From Ignatzschineria rhizosphaerae (GTDB lineage Bacteria; Pseudomonadota; Gammaproteobacteria; Cardiobacteriales; Wohlfahrtiimonadaceae): a DNA stretch of 64,000 bases. Position numbers and translations under genes: made by a program. The stretch is taken from positions 2,740,010 through 2,804,009 of the forward strand of contig NZ_CP093379.1 in the NCBI RefSeq assembly GCF_022655595.1. Reading direction: 5' to 3'. Of this stretch, positions 40,760-59,463 are shown piece after piece. How positions within the stretch are numbered: position 1 is the first letter of the stretch; each line of letters opens with the position of its first letter. A model generated the notes under the pieces. The model was not told where the DNA came from, made no database searches, and saw nothing but the letters and a program-made list of their open reading frames with translations.

Positions 40760-41632
40760 TGTAGGATTTTATCGCGTTGTTTACAGTATTAGGAGAAAAT
40801 ACTGTTATGAATATCCATCGAAAAACAAAATTAACGCCGTTTCATCGAGAAGAGATTTGGCGATCACATCATCAAGAAAAATTTACCGTAACCTATCTAG
40901 CTGAGCGTTTTATGGTAAGCAGACCTACGATCTATAAAGTACTAAAACAAGGTAGATTGAACTTGTTTGTGCCATTAGCTAGTAAAAATGAACGTTATAG
41001 AACAATTAAGTATGGCATTAAACGTCTTGCAAAGATTGAAAAATCTATTGAAGAGAAACTTAAAAAGAGGGCTAAACGTTTATAACAAAAACTATCCTGG
41101 CGAGATGGTCCATGTGGATACTAAACGGCTCCCTCTTTTAAAAGGGGATCTTAAAAATCGCACTAGAGAGTATTTATTTGTAGGAATTGATGATTTTTCA
41201 AGAGAACTTTATGCCGGTATTTATCCTGATAAATCACAGTTTAGTGCTGCTGAATTTCTTCGATGGGATCTGTTAGAACAGTGTCCCTATACTGTAGAAT
41301 GCACCTATTCGGATAATGGTCGTGAGTATAAAGGTACATCAGAACATGCCTTTGTCGAAATGTGTCTAACACATAAGATTAATCAAAAGTTCACAAAGCC
41401 AGCTTGCCCTCAAACGAATGGAAAAGCAGAAAGAGTCATTCGAACACTCATGGAAATGTGGCATAATCAGGAGGAGTTTATCAGTTCAGATGATCGGAAA
41501 AAGAAGCTAAAACGATTTTTGAACTATTACAACACAGTAAAACCTCATAAGGGTATTAATGGTTTAACGCCTTATGAAGTTTTAGAAAATTATTTTAACA
41601 CTGAAGTGTAAACAACCCGCCGATTTCTAACA
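40760..41632 (+). mobile_element. IS481-type element copy 4 (873 bp, no target duplication)
   Basis: Full ends. Flanks ATTAAAT (left) and CTTAGAA (right) do not match, so adjacent DNA was lost or rearranged after insertion. One base longer than consensus. Confidence 0.92.
40777..41611 (+). pseudogene. IS481-type transposase copy 4, frameshifted
   Basis: Identical to the intact copies except that ACGTTTATAAC replaces ACGTTATAAC (~41080), shifting the frame after 102 residues. The downstream part (YNKNYPGEMVHVDTKRLP to the end) is otherwise intact in the other frame. Confidence 0.9.
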
Positions 41633-45452: not shown

Positions 45453-46324
45453 TGTTAGAAATCGGCGGGTTGTTTACACTTCAGTGTTAAAATAATTTTC
45501 TAAAACTTCATAAGGCGTTAAACCATTAATACCCTTATGAGGTTTTACTGTGTTGTAATAGTTCAAAAATCGTTTTAGCTTCTTTTTCCGATCATCTGAA
45601 CTGATAAACTCCTCCTGATTATGCCACATTTCCATGAGTGTTCGAATGGCTCTTTCTGCTTTTCCATTCGTTTGAGGGCAAGCTGGCTTTGTAAACTTTT
45701 GATTAATCTTATGTGTTAGACACATTTCGACAAAGGCATGTTCTGATGTACCTTTATACTCACGACCATTATCCGAATAGGTGCATTCTACAGTATAGGG
45801 ACACTGTTCTAACAGATCCCATCGAAGAAATTCAGCAGCACTAAACTGTGATTTATCAGGATAAATACCGGCATAAAGTTCTCTTGAAAAATCATCAATT
45901 CCTACAAATAAATACTCTCTAGTGCGATTTTTAAGATCCCCTTTTAAAAGAGGGAGCCGTTTAGTATCCACATGGACCATCTCGCCAGGATAGTTTTTGT
46001 TATAACGTTTAGCCCTCTTTTTAAGTTTCTCTTCAATAGATTTTTCAATCTTTGCAAGACGTTTAATGCCATGCTTAATTGTTCTATAACGTTCATTTTT
46101 ACTAGCTAATGGCACAAACAAGTTCAATCTACCTTGTTTTAGTACTTTATAGATCGTAGGTCTGCTTACCATAAAACGCTCAGCTAGATAGGTTACGGTA
46201 AATTTTTCTTGATGATGTAATCGCCAAATCTCTTCTCGATGAAACGGCGTTAATTTTGTTTTTCGATGGATATTCATAACAGTATTTTCTCCTAATACTG
46301 TAAACAACGCGATAAAATCCTACA
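45453..46324 (-). mobile_element. IS481-type element copy 5 (872 bp)
   Basis: Intact ends and perfect 7-bp target duplications GCTATTT (45446-45452 and 46325-46331). Probably a recent insertion. Confidence 0.93.
45474..46307 (-). CDS. IS481-type transposase, copy 5 (intact)
   Basis: 277 aa, intact, differing from copy 3 by only a few residues (RTIKHGIKR, LLEQCPYT, KAERAIRT). Full HTH and DDE motifs. With copy 3 it is a candidate source of transposase for all copies. Confidence 0.93.
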   Translation of the reverse strand: MFTVLGENTVMNIHRKTKLTPFHREEIWRLHHQEKFTVTYLAERFMVSRPTIYKVLKQGRLNLFVPLASKNERYRTIKHGIKRLAKIEKSIEEKLKKRAKRYNKNYPGEMVHVDTKRLPLLKGDLKNRTREYLFVGIDDFSRELYAGIYPDKSQFSAAEFLRWDLLEQCPYTVECTYSDNGREYKGTSEHAFVEMCLTHKINQKFTKPACPQTNGKAERAIRTLMEMWHNQEEFISSDDRKKKLKRFLNYYNTVKPHKGINGLTPYEVLENYFNTEV

Positions 46325-54663: not shown

Positions 54664-54702
54664 GCTATGAGTTCTTAATTGTGGTGATGAATAACTCATA
54701 GC
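54664..54702. promoter_or_regulatory. Operator candidate 1 in the lysogeny control region
   Basis: Perfect 10-bp inverted repeat GCTATGAGTT/AACTCATAGC with a 19-bp spacer, between the divergent early operon and repressor gene. Confidence 0.55.
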
Positions 54703-54784: not shown

Positions 54785-55210
54785 ATGAAGGAATTTTATC
54801 AAAGACTTATATTTACACGTCTTTCAATGAACCTTAATAAAAAAGAATTTGGTGCTTTAGGCGGTGTTAGCGATGTCTCACAAGGGCGTTATGAAGATGA
54901 AAACCCAGATAAAAGACAGAATCCAGGATTAGATTATTTATTAAATCTTAATAGAAACAATGTGGATATTTATTATCTACTTACTGGAGAAAGCTCTTCT
55001 AAGAACTTGAATACTGAAGAAAGCTTGCTATTAGAAATCTTCCGTAACAGTGATGATGAATCTAAAAAACTGATGTTAGATATTTGTCGCAAGTTCTCAG
55101 GATTGCCAGTATCACAAAATAACAATCGTCAAATTGAAGGTGTGGGGCAATATACTGAGAAAGAGATTATCAATCATAATCCTACTTTTGATCAGTCTAA
55201 AAAAAAATAG
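54785..55210 (+). CDS. Prophage repressor (HTH, XRE-like)
   Basis: About 141 aa from ATG 54785. An HTH segment (RLSMNLNKKEFGALGGVSDV) followed by YLLNLNRNNVDIYYLLTGES, typical of small P2-type C or CI-like repressors lacking a self-cleavage domain. Divergent from the early operon with two inverted repeats between. It heads a rightward operon: the next gene's GTG overlaps its stop by 1 bp. Confidence 0.82.
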   Translation: MKEFYQRLIFTRLSMNLNKKEFGALGGVSDVSQGRYEDENPDKRQNPGLDYLLNLNRNNVDIYYLLTGESSSKNLNTEESLLLEIFRNSDDESKKLMLDICRKFSGLPVSQNNNRQIEGVGQYTEKEIINHNPTFDQSKKK

Positions 55211-55602
55211 TGAACTATTTTATAGAACAAATGGATTTATATGATTCAGGAGAAATTGATCGTAATTCTTTGTTTTATACTTTTTTGGACGTTCAAAAGC
55301 AGTTAAAAAAAGAAGAATATTTGAAAGAGATAGCTATTAGGCAACATGCTGAAAAAATGGAGAGAAGAAGGAAGTTATATAGTATCGGGTGGCTTTTGCT
55401 AATCTTTTTTATTTGCTGTTTTATACTTATTAACGTGAAGTCAATACCTGCCACAAATGAGGCTGAGGCATTAGCCAATATATTGTTTATTCCTGTTATA
55501 TTTTTTTCTGGATTTTGGGTCTATCGAGACACTATGAAAGGTATCAAAAAACGATTAAAGGTAGAACATCAATGCTTTATTGATAAGACTAAGCTAAGTT
55601 AG
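55210..55602 (+). CDS. Lysogenic-operon membrane protein
   Basis: 130 aa; GTG start overlaps the repressor stop (TAGTG), implying translational coupling. Predicted: cytoplasmic helical N-terminus, then two transmembrane helices (WLLLIFFICCFILINVKSI, ALANILFIPVIFFSGFWVY) and a basic tail. No family recognised. Co-expression with the repressor suggests a lysogen function. Confidence 0.75.
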   Translation: MNYFIEQMDLYDSGEIDRNSLFYTFLDVQKQLKKEEYLKEIAIRQHAEKMERRRKLYSIGWLLLIFFICCFILINVKSIPATNEAEALANILFIPVIFFSGFWVYRDTMKGIKKRLKVEHQCFIDKTKLS

Positions 55603-55618
55603 CTGATATGGAGGAACT

Positions 55619-56134
55619 ATGGACGTTATATTAGGTTTAATATTTTGGGGCTTAGTGATCTATTATTTTGTTAGGCGTAGTAAAAGAAAGAAGCTTGAGA
55701 AACAGAAGTTACTGCAAGCCATTGAGAATAGTCGTCAAGAATCTCGTGCTCACGAGTCTTTGGATACTACGGATGCTGAAGCATATCTTCTAGCGCAAGA
55801 ATCCTTAAAATATGTGGATGAAAGAGAAGAGAAACAGTCCAAATATAGTGACAGGAAAAAATATTTTAATATATTTGATGACCCAAATATTGAAACTGCC
55901 GCTAAATCCCATAGAAATAGCCCAATAATTATTACTTTTATCTATGAGCGAGAAGATGAAGAAGGTAATGTTATTTCAAGCCAAGAAAGAGCTGTTCATC
56001 CCTACTATAGGGATGAAGATTACCTTGAAGGGTTTTGTTTAGATTATGAGGCAGAGCGAACCTTTAGAATAGATCGTATTGCTAGATTTACGGGAAATAG
56101 CAAGGCGATTTTTGATGCGTTAGATGCCAGTTAA
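55619..56134 (+). CDS. Membrane-anchored WYL-like domain protein
   Basis: 171 aa with GGAGG before the ATG. One N-terminal transmembrane helix (VILGLIFWGLVIYYFV), a charged helical linker, then a C-terminal region: IIITFIYEREDEEGNV, HPYYRDEDYLEGFCLDYEAE, FRIDRIARF. This last block looks like the WYL domain, which senses nucleotide or nucleic-acid ligands in defence and phage regulators. A WYL-like domain without HTH and tied to the membrane is unusual. The family call is by motif only. Confidence 0.65.
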   Translation: MDVILGLIFWGLVIYYFVRRSKRKKLEKQKLLQAIENSRQESRAHESLDTTDAEAYLLAQESLKYVDEREEKQSKYSDRKKYFNIFDDPNIETAAKSHRNSPIIITFIYEREDEEGNVISSQERAVHPYYRDEDYLEGFCLDYEAERTFRIDRIARFTGNSKAIFDALDAS

Positions 56135-56152
56135 TCATTAAAGGAGAGCATG

Positions 56153-56509
56153 ATGAAAAATATTTTATTAGGGGCTTTATTAGTTGTTGGTACTACTTCA
56201 TTTGCTACTTCGGCAGAGTGGTACGATGGTGGGACTTTACATCAATCGACAAGGGCAGAATGGGGTAAAGGTTCAGAAGCTAATAAGTTAGCTACTTGTG
56301 GGGATTGGGTTTCTGGCTTTTATAGTAATAAAAGACTTAATGCGAACCTAATGGCATTAATAGAAGTTAAAAAAATGAATGGTATTAAAGAGATATCAGA
56401 AGGGTGTGTGCAAATGCTTGATGCCGCAAATGGGCCTGAAACAGCAACCCAAAAATCTGCAGAGTTGTTTATTTTAGGTTCTATGATGGGCGGTTGGATT
56501 GAGTTATAG
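56153..56509 (+). CDS. Lysogenic-operon exported protein
   Basis: About 118 aa from the second ATG (56153), with AAGGAG at better spacing. Signal peptide MKNILLGALLVVGTTSFATS; mature part with two cysteines (TCGDWVSGFYS ... SEGCVQ) that could form a disulfide in the periplasm. It has a faint resemblance to small HdeA-like or Tai-type immunity proteins, not enough for a call. Confidence 0.65.
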   Translation: MKNILLGALLVVGTTSFATSAEWYDGGTLHQSTRAEWGKGSEANKLATCGDWVSGFYSNKRLNANLMALIEVKKMNGIKEISEGCVQMLDAANGPETATQKSAELFILGSMMGGWIEL

Positions 56510-56519
56510 GAAAGACGGT

Positions 56520-57347
56520 ATGTGGAAAAAAATAATTGTTGGTTTTCTTTTAACAGTTTCTCTTATATTTATTGGATTTTATGCAGAGCTCTCTTGGAAT
56601 TTAATTGAAGGTTATCCAGGGATATTTAAGGATTATCCTATGATCTTTGTAGGACTTGGAGCCGCAATAGCTGCTTTGGTTGGCGTTGTCATTAGCCAAG
56701 GTTGGCAGACGTATAACATTAAATTACAAAGTGCTTATGCACGAGAGTTAAAAGAACAAGAGTTAGCTTACAATAAAAATGTTTTGATTAGTGAAGAATC
56801 AGAAGCTATTAAAAAAGAGTTTATTATCAATACAATAAAAATAAAAAATCAATGTAAGCTATTAGTAGATAGTATACATGATCGTTACTATTTAGCAGTT
56901 TTAGAAAAAGAATCTATAGTTGAAGCCAAGCTTGATGGTGAAAATTCAATATTTGTTAAGGAAAATAAAGAGGATGTTAAAAAAATGTCTTATGATTGCT
57001 ATGAGAGATATAGAGAAACACTCATAGATTTTTATAATATTTCTTCATCTTTTCAATATACTTTGATTAAAAAAGGGGCGGAAAAATATTATCAAGAATA
57101 TATAGAGTTGAAAAAAGAGATGTTTAAGATGAAAGAAAAACTTTCAAATAAAACTTACCAAAGTATTAATAAATTAAATAGAATTAGAACTTTACCGGAT
57201 TTAAGAGAAGAGAGATATAGTTTCATAGATGAATATAATAATGACTCTCTATCTTTTTTGAATGACACTTTAAATCCTTTTTTTGATAACATTATTTCTG
57301 AAATATATTCTTCACCTTCCACTGAAAATCCGACACAAACCGGTTAG
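56520..57347 (+). CDS. Lysogenic-operon membrane protein with coiled-coil domain
   Basis: About 275 aa from ATG 56520 with AGGAAAGA upstream (a TTG at 56499 would add seven residues). Two transmembrane helices (IIVGFLLTVSLIFIGFYAEL, IFVGLGAAIAALVGVVIS), then a long Lys/Glu-rich helical cytoplasmic domain (~70-260). The layout resembles some phage exclusion or abortive-infection membrane proteins, as a topological analogy only. Confidence 0.68.
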   Translation: MWKKIIVGFLLTVSLIFIGFYAELSWNLIEGYPGIFKDYPMIFVGLGAAIAALVGVVISQGWQTYNIKLQSAYARELKEQELAYNKNVLISEESEAIKKEFIINTIKIKNQCKLLVDSIHDRYYLAVLEKESIVEAKLDGENSIFVKENKEDVKKMSYDCYERYRETLIDFYNISSSFQYTLIKKGAEKYYQEYIELKKEMFKMKEKLSNKTYQSINKLNRIRTLPDLREERYSFIDEYNNDSLSFLNDTLNPFFDNIISEIYSSPSTENPTQTG

Positions 57348-57404
57348 AAGTATTAACTCGTTGTGTAAATCTGGCATTACAATTAATGCTTTTTAGGTAA
57401 CAGC

Positions 57405-58484
57405 ATGACCTATTTTCAAATAGTTATATTAGCCCCATTTTGTTTACTTTTACTTATTGCACTTTCTTTATTTCTTTATGAAATATGTGGTCTGAAAAAA
57501 CTATTTAAATGGTGGTTAGGACTTGATTTTGATACAAAGATTATAGGTACAGCTCCATGTATATTGTTGATTATTTTGGTTCTTATATTTTTGGTTTCCG
57601 ATACTACTGAGGGGTATAAATCAATAGTATCAATGATGCTTCAAGTATCAGGAGTATCACTGGGGCTAGTTGCCGCAACTATAGCTTTCAGAAACTACCT
57701 TAGGAAGTCAGGGGATAAAATTTCATATATACCTATAAAAATGAATACTAATGAAGGGTATTCATTTTTATTGCACAATCAGAAAGATAAACAAGCCTTT
57801 GTTTTTGCAATAGATGCTGTTTTAGCCAAAAATAAGAAAAGAATTAGGTTGGTGGACTACTCGAAGCCTCCTATGGAACTAATAACAATTTCTCCGTTTG
57901 GAAGTCAACAGATAGATTTACCAAAAGCTGATAAATATGGGGATAGCGATCTACTTTCTTTTGATATTGAAGAAGTATCTCACTTAATATGTATTACTAC
58001 TAATGGTGAAATGAAGGTAGAAGAGCAAATTTTTAAAAGTTTATCAGATAAATATATTGAGCAAGAAAATATTATTCGTTCAAATTATATTATTAATAAA
58101 CCTTTAGAATATGATTTTGAAGTAAGCCCTAAAGCTAGGTATTGGGTGTTTTTTGACTATAGCTATAGTACTTCATACTCAGGTATTAGCAGTTCTAGAG
58201 CTATTTTAACAGCTTATATTGAAAATGGACAATTTTTAGTATGTGAATGTATGGATAATAAAATTAATGATAAGCGTTATTATTCTTATATTTTGGAAAA
58301 AGCTCATAAGAAAACTGTTGATGAATCAAATTATTGTTCTTACGGAGACAAAAAGGCGTCAGAAGGCACATATTTAGTTAATGGTCTGTTGGAACAGGAA
58401 TTACATATTGATTATATTCTGAAACCTGCAATTAAAATCATAAGTATTAATAAAATTTCTTATAGCAATATCCCTATGCTTTAA
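57405..58484 (+). CDS. Lysogenic-operon membrane protein with large soluble domain
   Basis: 359 aa. Three transmembrane helices (~5-28, 44-64, 77-95) and a ~260-residue soluble domain with no motif I recognise. Its 3' end overlaps the end of the tail gene D, on the opposite strand, by 11 bp. Last gene of the operon. Confidence 0.68.
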   Translation: MTYFQIVILAPFCLLLLIALSLFLYEICGLKKLFKWWLGLDFDTKIIGTAPCILLIILVLIFLVSDTTEGYKSIVSMMLQVSGVSLGLVAATIAFRNYLRKSGDKISYIPIKMNTNEGYSFLLHNQKDKQAFVFAIDAVLAKNKKRIRLVDYSKPPMELITISPFGSQQIDLPKADKYGDSDLLSFDIEEVSHLICITTNGEMKVEEQIFKSLSDKYIEQENIIRSNYIINKPLEYDFEVSPKARYWVFFDYSYSTSYSGISSSRAILTAYIENGQFLVCECMDNKINDKRYYSYILEKAHKKTVDESNYCSYGDKKASEGTYLVNGLLEQELHIDYILKPAIKIISINKISYSNIPML

Positions 58485-59463
58485 CCTCTCCCTGAAGCTC
58501 AGACACAAACCCATTAGAAGCATCAATTCGATGCGTGATAGTGGTCACTATCCAGTTATGATTATCCATTTCAGTCTTGAAGCCCACCAATTTGAGTGGG
58601 CTTTCTGCACTTAGTTCTGCATTGCCTCGTGCGAGATTAACGCTCACACTTGCTAAGCTGCGCTTTAGACGTTTGAATTGTTGATCCGCTGCGGTTTTAG
58701 CCTCCTTTTCATTGTTGTAAATCTTTCTAATCTTAAACGGCCGGCGATCTTCACCAACTATTAATGTTTGGCGTTTGGCTTTGTCTGAAAGCAGAAAACG
58801 CACCTCAACTCCTGTGTATTGGTCACGGTCAGAAACTGTGTAGTTATGTTGATCTCCATCTGATCGGTGGTGCGTGATCGTATCCAGGCTTTCCCCTGAA
58901 GCCGTTTTACCGGCACCCCGTTCTAAAAAGAGCAGTGTTCCATTTTTAATCGTCGCAATAGCGTCATACTCTTCAGCAATTCGAGTGAGAAGATTCGCAT
59001 CAGACTCGTTTGCTTGCGACTTCTCTTTGATTTTGATCTTTTGGTAAATCTCAGCAACCTTGGATTCTAGCTTATGTTTTTTGGCAATCGCTTCGACAAT
59101 CTCTTGAATCGTTTTATTCTCAAAGAGTAAGCTTTTACGCTCTAAGAGCTCTTTCTTAAAGTCTGCAGAGTGAGCTCCAATAGTAATAATATCGGGTGGG
59201 CCAGAGTGCATGACTGAATCAACGATGAACTTGCCTTTATTAATGAGATTGATACCAAAGCCAATGGCGATCTGGATCTCGGCATCACGATTTGGGAGTT
59301 CTATTAAACCGTCAGAATCATTAATCACAATCTGCAAGGTATCGGCATCAAAGCCTCTGTTTTCAATCAGAGAGATACTATTGATATTATTATTGAGTAA
59401 GATAGACGGCATCCCATTAATCGTGATGGCCACATTTGGTTGATTTTGATTTATTACTAACAT
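58474..59463 (-). CDS. D: P2-like tail protein gpD (late control D family)
   Basis: 329 aa baseplate/tail hub protein needed for tail completion in P2. It begins MLVINQNQPNVAITINGMPS, has the family's HHRSDGDQHNYTVSDRDQYT region and ends ...ASNGFVSELQGEVKA. Starts 1 bp after gene U. Convergent with the lysogenic operon and overlapping it by 11 bp. Confidence 0.9.
   Translation of the reverse strand: MLVINQNQPNVAITINGMPSILLNNNINSISLIENRGFDADTLQIVINDSDGLIELPNRDAEIQIAIGFGINLINKGKFIVDSVMHSGPPDIITIGAHSADFKKELLERKSLLFENKTIQEIVEAIAKKHKLESKVAEIYQKIKIKEKSQANESDANLLTRIAEEYDAIATIKNGTLLFLERGAGKTASGESLDTITHHRSDGDQHNYTVSDRDQYTGVEVRFLLSDKAKRQTLIVGEDRRPFKIRKIYNNEKEAKTAADQQFKRLKRSLASVSVNLARGNAELSAESPLKLVGFKTEMDNHNWIVTTITHRIDASNGFVSELQGEVKA

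Follow-up and report, generated by a model that had tools for sequence, protein, structure and literature searches.

We analysed a 64,000-nucleotide stretch of the Ignatzschineria rhizosphaerae genome (NZ_CP093379.1, positions 2,740,010 to 2,804,009; hereafter the window). The genome is a single contig of 3.07 Mb and belongs to the order Cardiobacteriales. Our subject is a set of five genes, here called open reading frames (ORFs) 2 to 6, at one end of a P2-like prophage, with the early genes and a repressor on one side and a convergent gpD-type tail gene on the other (Table 1). Neighbouring genes match PHROG tail, primase, integrase and transcription-regulator families, so the prophage setting described in an earlier note on this DNA is real; the names gpD, gpU and "P2-like" are our reading of gene order and content. 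All five ORFs were recovered on the forward strand as that note had listed them, in a common orientation and with short gaps between them. A simple hydropathy predictor, used for all transmembrane (TM) segments reported here, gave 2, 1, 0, 2 and 3 segments for ORF2 to ORF6, and the start of ORF4 reads as a signal-peptide-like stretch, in agreement with the four membrane proteins and one exported protein already proposed. The earlier note had regarded all five as one accessory cassette behind the repressor. The genes do lie close behind the repressor and run into an accessory slot; ORF2 and ORF3, by our analysis, belong to the repressor. It is well supported that the five genes form two units, not one defence system: ORF2-ORF3 as part of an immunity module, and ORF4-ORF6 as separately acquired cargo.

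Table 1. Features between the candidate operator and gpD (window positions).
Feature	Position	Strand	Match or note
Inverted repeat upstream of the repressor, operator candidate	54664..54702	.	16-nt arms, 88% complementary, 7 nt apart
Repressor, helix-turn-helix (HTH) type without S24 peptidase; 141 amino acids (aa) from ATG 54785 (144 aa from GTG 54776)	54785..55210	+	PHROG 8 "transcriptional regulator", E 1.8e-8
Nine-A run where the repressor gene ends, candidate site of slippage or frameshifting	55199..55207	+	
ORF2, 130 aa, two TM segments; probable counterpart of the membrane part of a fused repressor	55210..55602	+	
ORF3, 171 aa, N-terminal TM segment and WYL domain	55619..56134	+	PF13280
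ORF4, 119 aa, probably exported; cargo	56150..56509	+	phrog_23065, E 2.7e-16
ORF5, 275 aa from ATG 56520 (282 aa from TTG 56499), two TM segments; cargo	56520..57347	+	
Degenerate gpD 3'-end copy overlapping the end of ORF5, 56 base pairs (bp), 75%; putative insertion scar	57311..57366	-	blastn E 2e-5 in the window
ORF6, 359 aa, three TM segments, C-terminal part soluble; cargo	57405..58484	+	
gpD-type tail gene, slot border, convergent with the cargo	58474..59463	-	PHROG 52 tail protein, E 8.8e-114

No Pfam family matched the window repressor, and neither an S24 match nor the serine motif was found in it. Promoter-like sites were no commoner than in shuffles (23 vs 19.8, standard deviation 4.8). 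The same genome carries a second P2-like prophage (loci L010 and L017), which has a different inverted repeat at the place equivalent to the operator candidate (L010:2926-2972). Its repressor is a single ORF of 280 aa that combines an HTH with a C-terminal hairpin of two TM segments, and its N-terminus is 40% identical to the window repressor over 98 aa. The next gene encodes a 166-aa protein with a TM segment and a WYL domain, 52% identical to ORF3 (49% in the full alignment). The order repressor (or repressor part), two-TM piece and TM-WYL protein is therefore common to both prophages. An HTH and TM segments are present in one chain in the second prophage, and would be so in the window only if two frames were joined. 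When used as a query, the fused repressor had no match in viral contigs and returned nothing usable among solved structures. In another family of the class (L026:725-1791), the gene behind a repressor relative likewise encodes a protein for which two TM segments are predicted.

In the window, the stop codon of the repressor and the start codon of ORF2 overlap in the sequence TAGTG (55208-55212), which makes the translational coupling suggested by the earlier note plausible. A feature absent from that note is the run of nine A at this junction, where ORF2 starts in the -1 frame relative to the repressor. It is the only run of at least eight A or T inside an ORF of at least 60 aa in the window, which has two such runs overall. 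Baranov et al. (PMC1088944) report that, in a large share of bacterial genomes, selection against A/T runs becomes apparent at a length of nine. The stem behind the run is weak (z -1.94; 9 of 200 shuffles were as good). ORF2 lacks a ribosome-binding site, with an anti-Shine-Dalgarno pairing of -1.1 kcal/mol, as compared to -9.3, -8.7, -4.5 and -3.8 kcal/mol for the starts of ORF3 to ORF6, respectively. A BLASTP comparison of ORF2 with the C-terminus of the fused repressor, made on this single pair, gave an E value of 8e-4. The score of 60 was above those of all 57 TM control proteins (best 50) and was reached by none of 3000 free shuffles, by 3 of 3000 that kept hydropathy and by 30 of 3000 block shuffles. 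This is moderate evidence, to which the shared position adds, that ORF2 may correspond to the membrane-spanning part of the fused repressor. Slippage on the nine A, plain coupling, or a one-base change or miscount that has split a fused gene would each give the repressor a membrane partner.

The WYL-like domain that the earlier note had seen in one of the membrane proteins was confirmed in ORF3, which scored 28.8 bits against PF13280 (Pfam cut-off 21.8). No HTH family was found in ORF3 by Pfam, the protein having an N-terminal TM segment instead. WYL is typically a ligand-sensing domain of regulators, and that of PafBC binds single-stranded DNA, which switches the factor on (PMC11804915, available in part). 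In PADLOC, ORF3 alone scored, against CRISPR-associated WYL models with a best E of 6.5e-5; none of the other proteins was better than E 0.004. We built a WYL profile from the three Pfam-positive proteins (ORF3 of the window and those of L017 and L090) and ran it against 827 ORFs, a number that includes copies from overlapping loci. In six more loci, it picked out one of the first two genes behind the repressor, with E values of 2.5e-7 in L082 and 1.1e-5 in L083 and marginal ones in L087 (0.005), L088 (0.008), L094 (0.013) and L084 (0.014). A chromosomal HTH-WYL regulator matched at 1.8e-7, and the next unrelated ORF at 0.044. An alignment of all nine WYL-like proteins had matches in 118 of 369 genomes of the class. 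Four of the eight class loci inspected are HTH-WYL regulators by reading (L097, L098, L117, L122), and the domain assignment therefore holds.

Further searches with the WYL region were made in several collections. No match to ORF3 was found in viral contigs, the TM-WYL proteins of L082 and L087 had no match among phage records, and scans with a two-row WYL alignment, whose patterns were poor, found nothing. Among solved structures, a WYL alignment matched a chain of a Pif1-type AAA ATPase (E 0.0011). A hand-made WYL pattern recovered, in a genome of the same genus (G007), a remnant holding the C-terminal, WYL-bearing part of an ORF3 relative, with no repressor beside it on the contig; none of the other stretches passed the inclusion threshold of the ORF3 profile. 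The sequence upstream of this remnant resembles, by reading, that before the repressor. In another family of the class, a WYL-plus-BRCT-like protein (L121:1207-2678; BRCT by reading) lies two genes behind a phage-type HTH protein, and proteins similar to it were seen behind S24 repressors in L084 and L094.

A search for gpD in the order gave 18 matches in 12 of 32 genomes, and 15 of the matches had a repressor on the available DNA. These 15 loci (the window, L017, L024, L082-L084 and L086-L094) were used as a census; L085, where the contig ends before the repressor, L095, a gpD remnant with stops, and L079, a gpD fragment inside L088, were dropped. A TM segment was predicted in the protein behind or fused to the repressor at 11 of the 15 loci, as compared to 30 of 159 background ORFs (at least 80 aa and outside the slots between repressor module and gpD; binomial P 7e-6). 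The count of 11 came from a script that includes the signal-peptide-like start of the L024 protein, and hand-set flags gave 10 of 15. Without L024, the count was 10 of 15 (P 7e-5), and with near-identical pairs collapsed it was 8 of 13 (P 8e-4).

Eight of the census repressors are S24 proteins by Pfam (L024, L082-L084, L089, L092-L094). The other seven (window, L010/L017, L086, L087, L088, L090, L091) were classed as non-S24 from the Pfam scan for the window, L010/L017, L086, L087 and L090, from identity with the L087 sequence for L088, and from the missing serine motif for L091. In a post hoc comparison, partners with at least two TM segments followed or were fused to five of the seven non-S24 repressors and followed one of the eight S24 repressors. 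In L087 and L088, the two-TM protein has a gene of its own, which begins immediately behind the repressor stop. WYL-like proteins were present in nine of the 15 slots, namely five of the seven without S24 and four of the eight with it. The last figure rules out that WYL proteins are a mere substitute for S24 (RecA-driven) cleavage. Several non-S24 repressors end in a glycine/asparagine-rich repeat resembling GN-I-G-S-I (L086:5058-5975, L087:5455-5919, L090:2873-3463, L091:3250-3627), and in L086 the protein next to the repressor begins with a similar motif. This motif is reminiscent of bacterial amyloid signalling motifs.

Across the 15 loci, the slot between the repressor module and gpD holds approximately 1-5 kb of high-turnover genes between conserved phage genes, as hotspots do. 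The cargo changes even between near-identical modules (L082/L083 and L087/L088). In the second prophage, the slot encodes a 903-aa protein that matches the restriction-type domain HSDR_N at 42 bits (Pfam cut-off 25.1) and has P-loop matches below the cut-offs. A third P2-like prophage of the genome (L024, 2.22-2.24 Mb) has a gpD protein 99% identical to that of the window and a different repressor and cargo, with a 190-aa exported-looking protein behind an S24 repressor. Modules have thus been exchanged within one genome. By reading, similar nuclease-like proteins lie behind the repressors of L089 (5856-6515) and L091 (2565-3353).

The degenerate gpD copy in the window, the second feature that the earlier note lacked, scored 45, and none of 260 control stretches exceeded 19. 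The L088 slot contains a longer gpD remnant (233 bp, 82%). Thirteen gpD loci were examined; for the remaining 11, nine returned no match, L085 a match of only 13 bp, and L089 a 21-bp match that falls outside its slot. We read the two remnants as probable scars of successive insertions at the gpD border, in which case ORF4-ORF5 and ORF6 would therefore have arrived in separate steps. In L088, the remnant is followed by further genes that are, by reading, PIN-like and HTH/peptidase-like and form a second cargo layer (L088:6041-8898).

Relatives of the cargo genes were found apart from one another. An ORF4 relative lies elsewhere on the same chromosome (L007, 38% identity) with no recognisable prophage genes around it, and another is plasmid-borne in Yersinia massiliensis (33% over 77%). 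Among the genomes of the order, the ORF4 family occurred in its own genome only (1 of 32), and one weak piece from viral contigs (27% over 55 residues) was not used. An early impression that ORF4 is HdeA-like was set aside. For ORF5, no relative was found in the 31 other genomes of the order, in phages, in plasmids or in viral contigs. ORF6 has relatives in four of the 32 genomes, its own included, and none of them was seen next to prophage genes. Two lie among chromosomal genes by reading (L013/L019 and L015/L020), and one is at a contig end (L014/L021). The one in its own genome (L016/L018) is directly upstream of a RosmerTA pair (RmrT, E 1.4e-19; RmrA, E 7e-119). These genes lie at L018:5557-8497, about 443-447 kb in the genome, in what is apparently an accessory region. 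Viral contigs gave nothing for ORF6. Homologs scattered in non-prophage settings, which the earlier note had named as evidence against its proposal, thus exist for ORF4 and ORF6, as far as the contexts can be read. No PADLOC defence model matched ORF4-ORF6. Single-sequence structure models of ORF6 and ORF4 had a mean predicted local distance difference test score of 37 and 45, respectively, and were not used for fold searches; searches of solved structures with the two proteins gave nothing usable. From their place in the slot, ORF4-ORF6 probably give the lysogen some advantage, and this could possibly be the exclusion of other phages. The idea of defence-like content in the slot gained from the HSDR_N protein of the sister prophage and from the RosmerTA pair beside the ORF6 relative.

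The explanation that we favour, at a probability of about 0.55, is that a membrane-associated module of repressor, ORF2 and ORF3 is followed by cargo acquired stepwise. Both units would probably be carried on one transcript. Within the immunity module, the repressor would silence the prophage while part or all of it is held at the inner membrane through ORF2. ORF2 may act as the membrane part of the repressor either as a separate protein made by translational coupling or joined to it by slippage or frameshifting on the nine A. ORF3 would be a membrane-tethered WYL sensor for a nucleic acid or nucleotide signal (single-stranded DNA, by analogy with PafBC), which on binding may alter the state of the repressor or expression behind it. 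ORF4-ORF6 would be cargo gained in steps between this module and gpD. We propose this mechanism for the repressor module because of the domain identity, the linkage and the fused homologue. Stress sensing is only partly understood for phages with a repressor that has no self-cleaving domain. A bolder form of the proposal, in which a partly anchored non-S24 repressor and a WYL sensor reading incoming or damaged DNA together set the choice between lysis and lysogeny without repressor cleavage, is tentative and rather doubtful. A limited search of the literature found no description of a membrane-held phage repressor with a WYL protein.

Several observations weigh against the favoured explanation. 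ORF2 is only weakly similar to the fused repressor (26% over 89 aa, with a phmmer E of 0.03 in a small set), and 1% of the block shuffles score as high. At the junction of the sole fused relative, there is no nine-A run and the frame is continuous; conservation therefore does not support the use of slippage. Only three of the nine WYL-like calls pass the Pfam cut-off (window, L017, L090) and four are marginal. No WYL-like protein was found in six of the 15 loci (L024, L086, L089, L091-L093), such proteins also stand behind half of the S24 repressors, and the census includes two near-identical pairs (L082/L083 and L087/L088). A terminator scan found a weak terminator-like site on the forward strand within ORF2 (55461-55476), and an A+T-rich hairpin with five T, noted by eye, precedes ORF6 (57374-57394). 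Because of these two sites, ORF6 may be off the shared transcript and transcribed apart; co-expression of the first genes is likely.

It is quite possible, if on balance improbable, that the repressor and ORF2 are one gene, with the nine-A run reflecting a recent one-base mutation or a homopolymer miscounted in the assembly, and that the repressor is permanently membrane-bound. This alternative overlaps with the explanation that we favour and differs from it in how ORF2 is made. It is consistent with the fusion in the second prophage and with the lack of a ribosome-binding site in ORF2. Long A runs are, moreover, prone to one-base changes, and a single-base insertion or deletion splits the ORF of one of two insertion sequence copies in the window that are 99% identical (40777-41611 and 45474-46307). 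However, an overlap of stop and start is also a normal coupling signal, and the separate two-TM genes of L087 and L088 also weigh against this alternative. Another view keeps ORF2 and ORF3 in the membrane as superinfection exclusion proteins that are co-expressed with the repressor and do not regulate it. Both are membrane proteins, their order suggests expression with the repressor, the general argument about genes under a lysogeny promoter applies to them, and ORF3 had the best PADLOC score, against CRISPR-associated WYL models. We consider this view unlikely, as fusion of the two-TM part to the repressor in the second prophage is hard to explain for an exclusion protein, and WYL domains typically sense ligands in regulators (PMC11804915).

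The proposal of the earlier note, a single exclusion or defence system made up of all five genes, would fit their common orientation, their short gaps, the mix of membrane and exported proteins and their position in the slot. It is nevertheless very improbable. The set was found at no second place in the collections searched, ORF2 by itself not being among the queries, and ORF4, ORF5 and ORF6 were found together nowhere else. In addition, the second prophage has a repressor with counterparts of ORF2-ORF3 and lacks ORF4-ORF6, and the gpD scar lies between ORF5 and ORF6. As for the cargo unit itself, there is a serious chance, not far below even, that ORF4-ORF6 are lysogenic conversion genes for traits other than defence (envelope, stress) or are neutral. 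The lack of any match to a defence model and the relatives of ORF4 and ORF6 among ordinary chromosomal genes point this way (no relative of ORF5 was found), whereas the HSDR_N protein in the second-prophage slot and the ORF6 relative beside RosmerTA point to defence.

The slot is known in kind, from the hotspots of P2-like prophages, and new in place; its cargo is ordinary, and the membrane repressor module is the surprising part. If the repressor does reside in the membrane beside a WYL sensor, phage immunity would be placed where incoming DNA arrives. The presence of fused and split versions in one genome makes the idea of a membrane repressor directly testable. More broadly, what lies behind a repressor is not necessarily defence cargo, and the repressor-to-gpD slot of Cardiobacteriales prophages is a place to look for new defence genes.

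The locus can be compared with five known systems. In Thermus dnaX, transcriptional slippage occurs on nine A (PMC1088944, available in part). The window likewise has a nine-A run at a frame junction; its run is not conserved in the only fused relative. RosmerTA, as recognised by the PADLOC models RmrT and RmrA, resembles our case in having an ORF6 relative directly upstream elsewhere in the same genome, but none of its genes is in the window cassette, and the likeness is one of neighbourhood only. P2-like prophages are known to carry accessory and anti-phage hotspots; in Vibrionaceae, one such hotspot separates cI from integrase (Rousset et al. 2022, PMC9122126). These hotspots share with our slot some kb of variable genes between two conserved prophage genes. 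The slot described here differs in its host order, Cardiobacteriales, and in its place: it lies between the repressor module and gpD, whereas the known hotspots are found at cos, flanked by gpA and gpQ (E. coli P2), or in the cI-integrase interval. The P2 exclusion genes old and tin, named in the same source, are likewise accessory genes of a P2-like prophage; they occupy another place in it, and none of our five proteins matches a named phage exclusion family in PHROG or PADLOC. Finally, ORF3 resembles the WYL regulators PafBC, CapW and BrxR in a WYL domain above the Pfam cut-off and in a genetic link with phage conflict. It differs from factors of the PafBC and CapW type in carrying a TM segment at its N-terminus and lacking an HTH, the DNA-binding part being in the neighbouring repressor.

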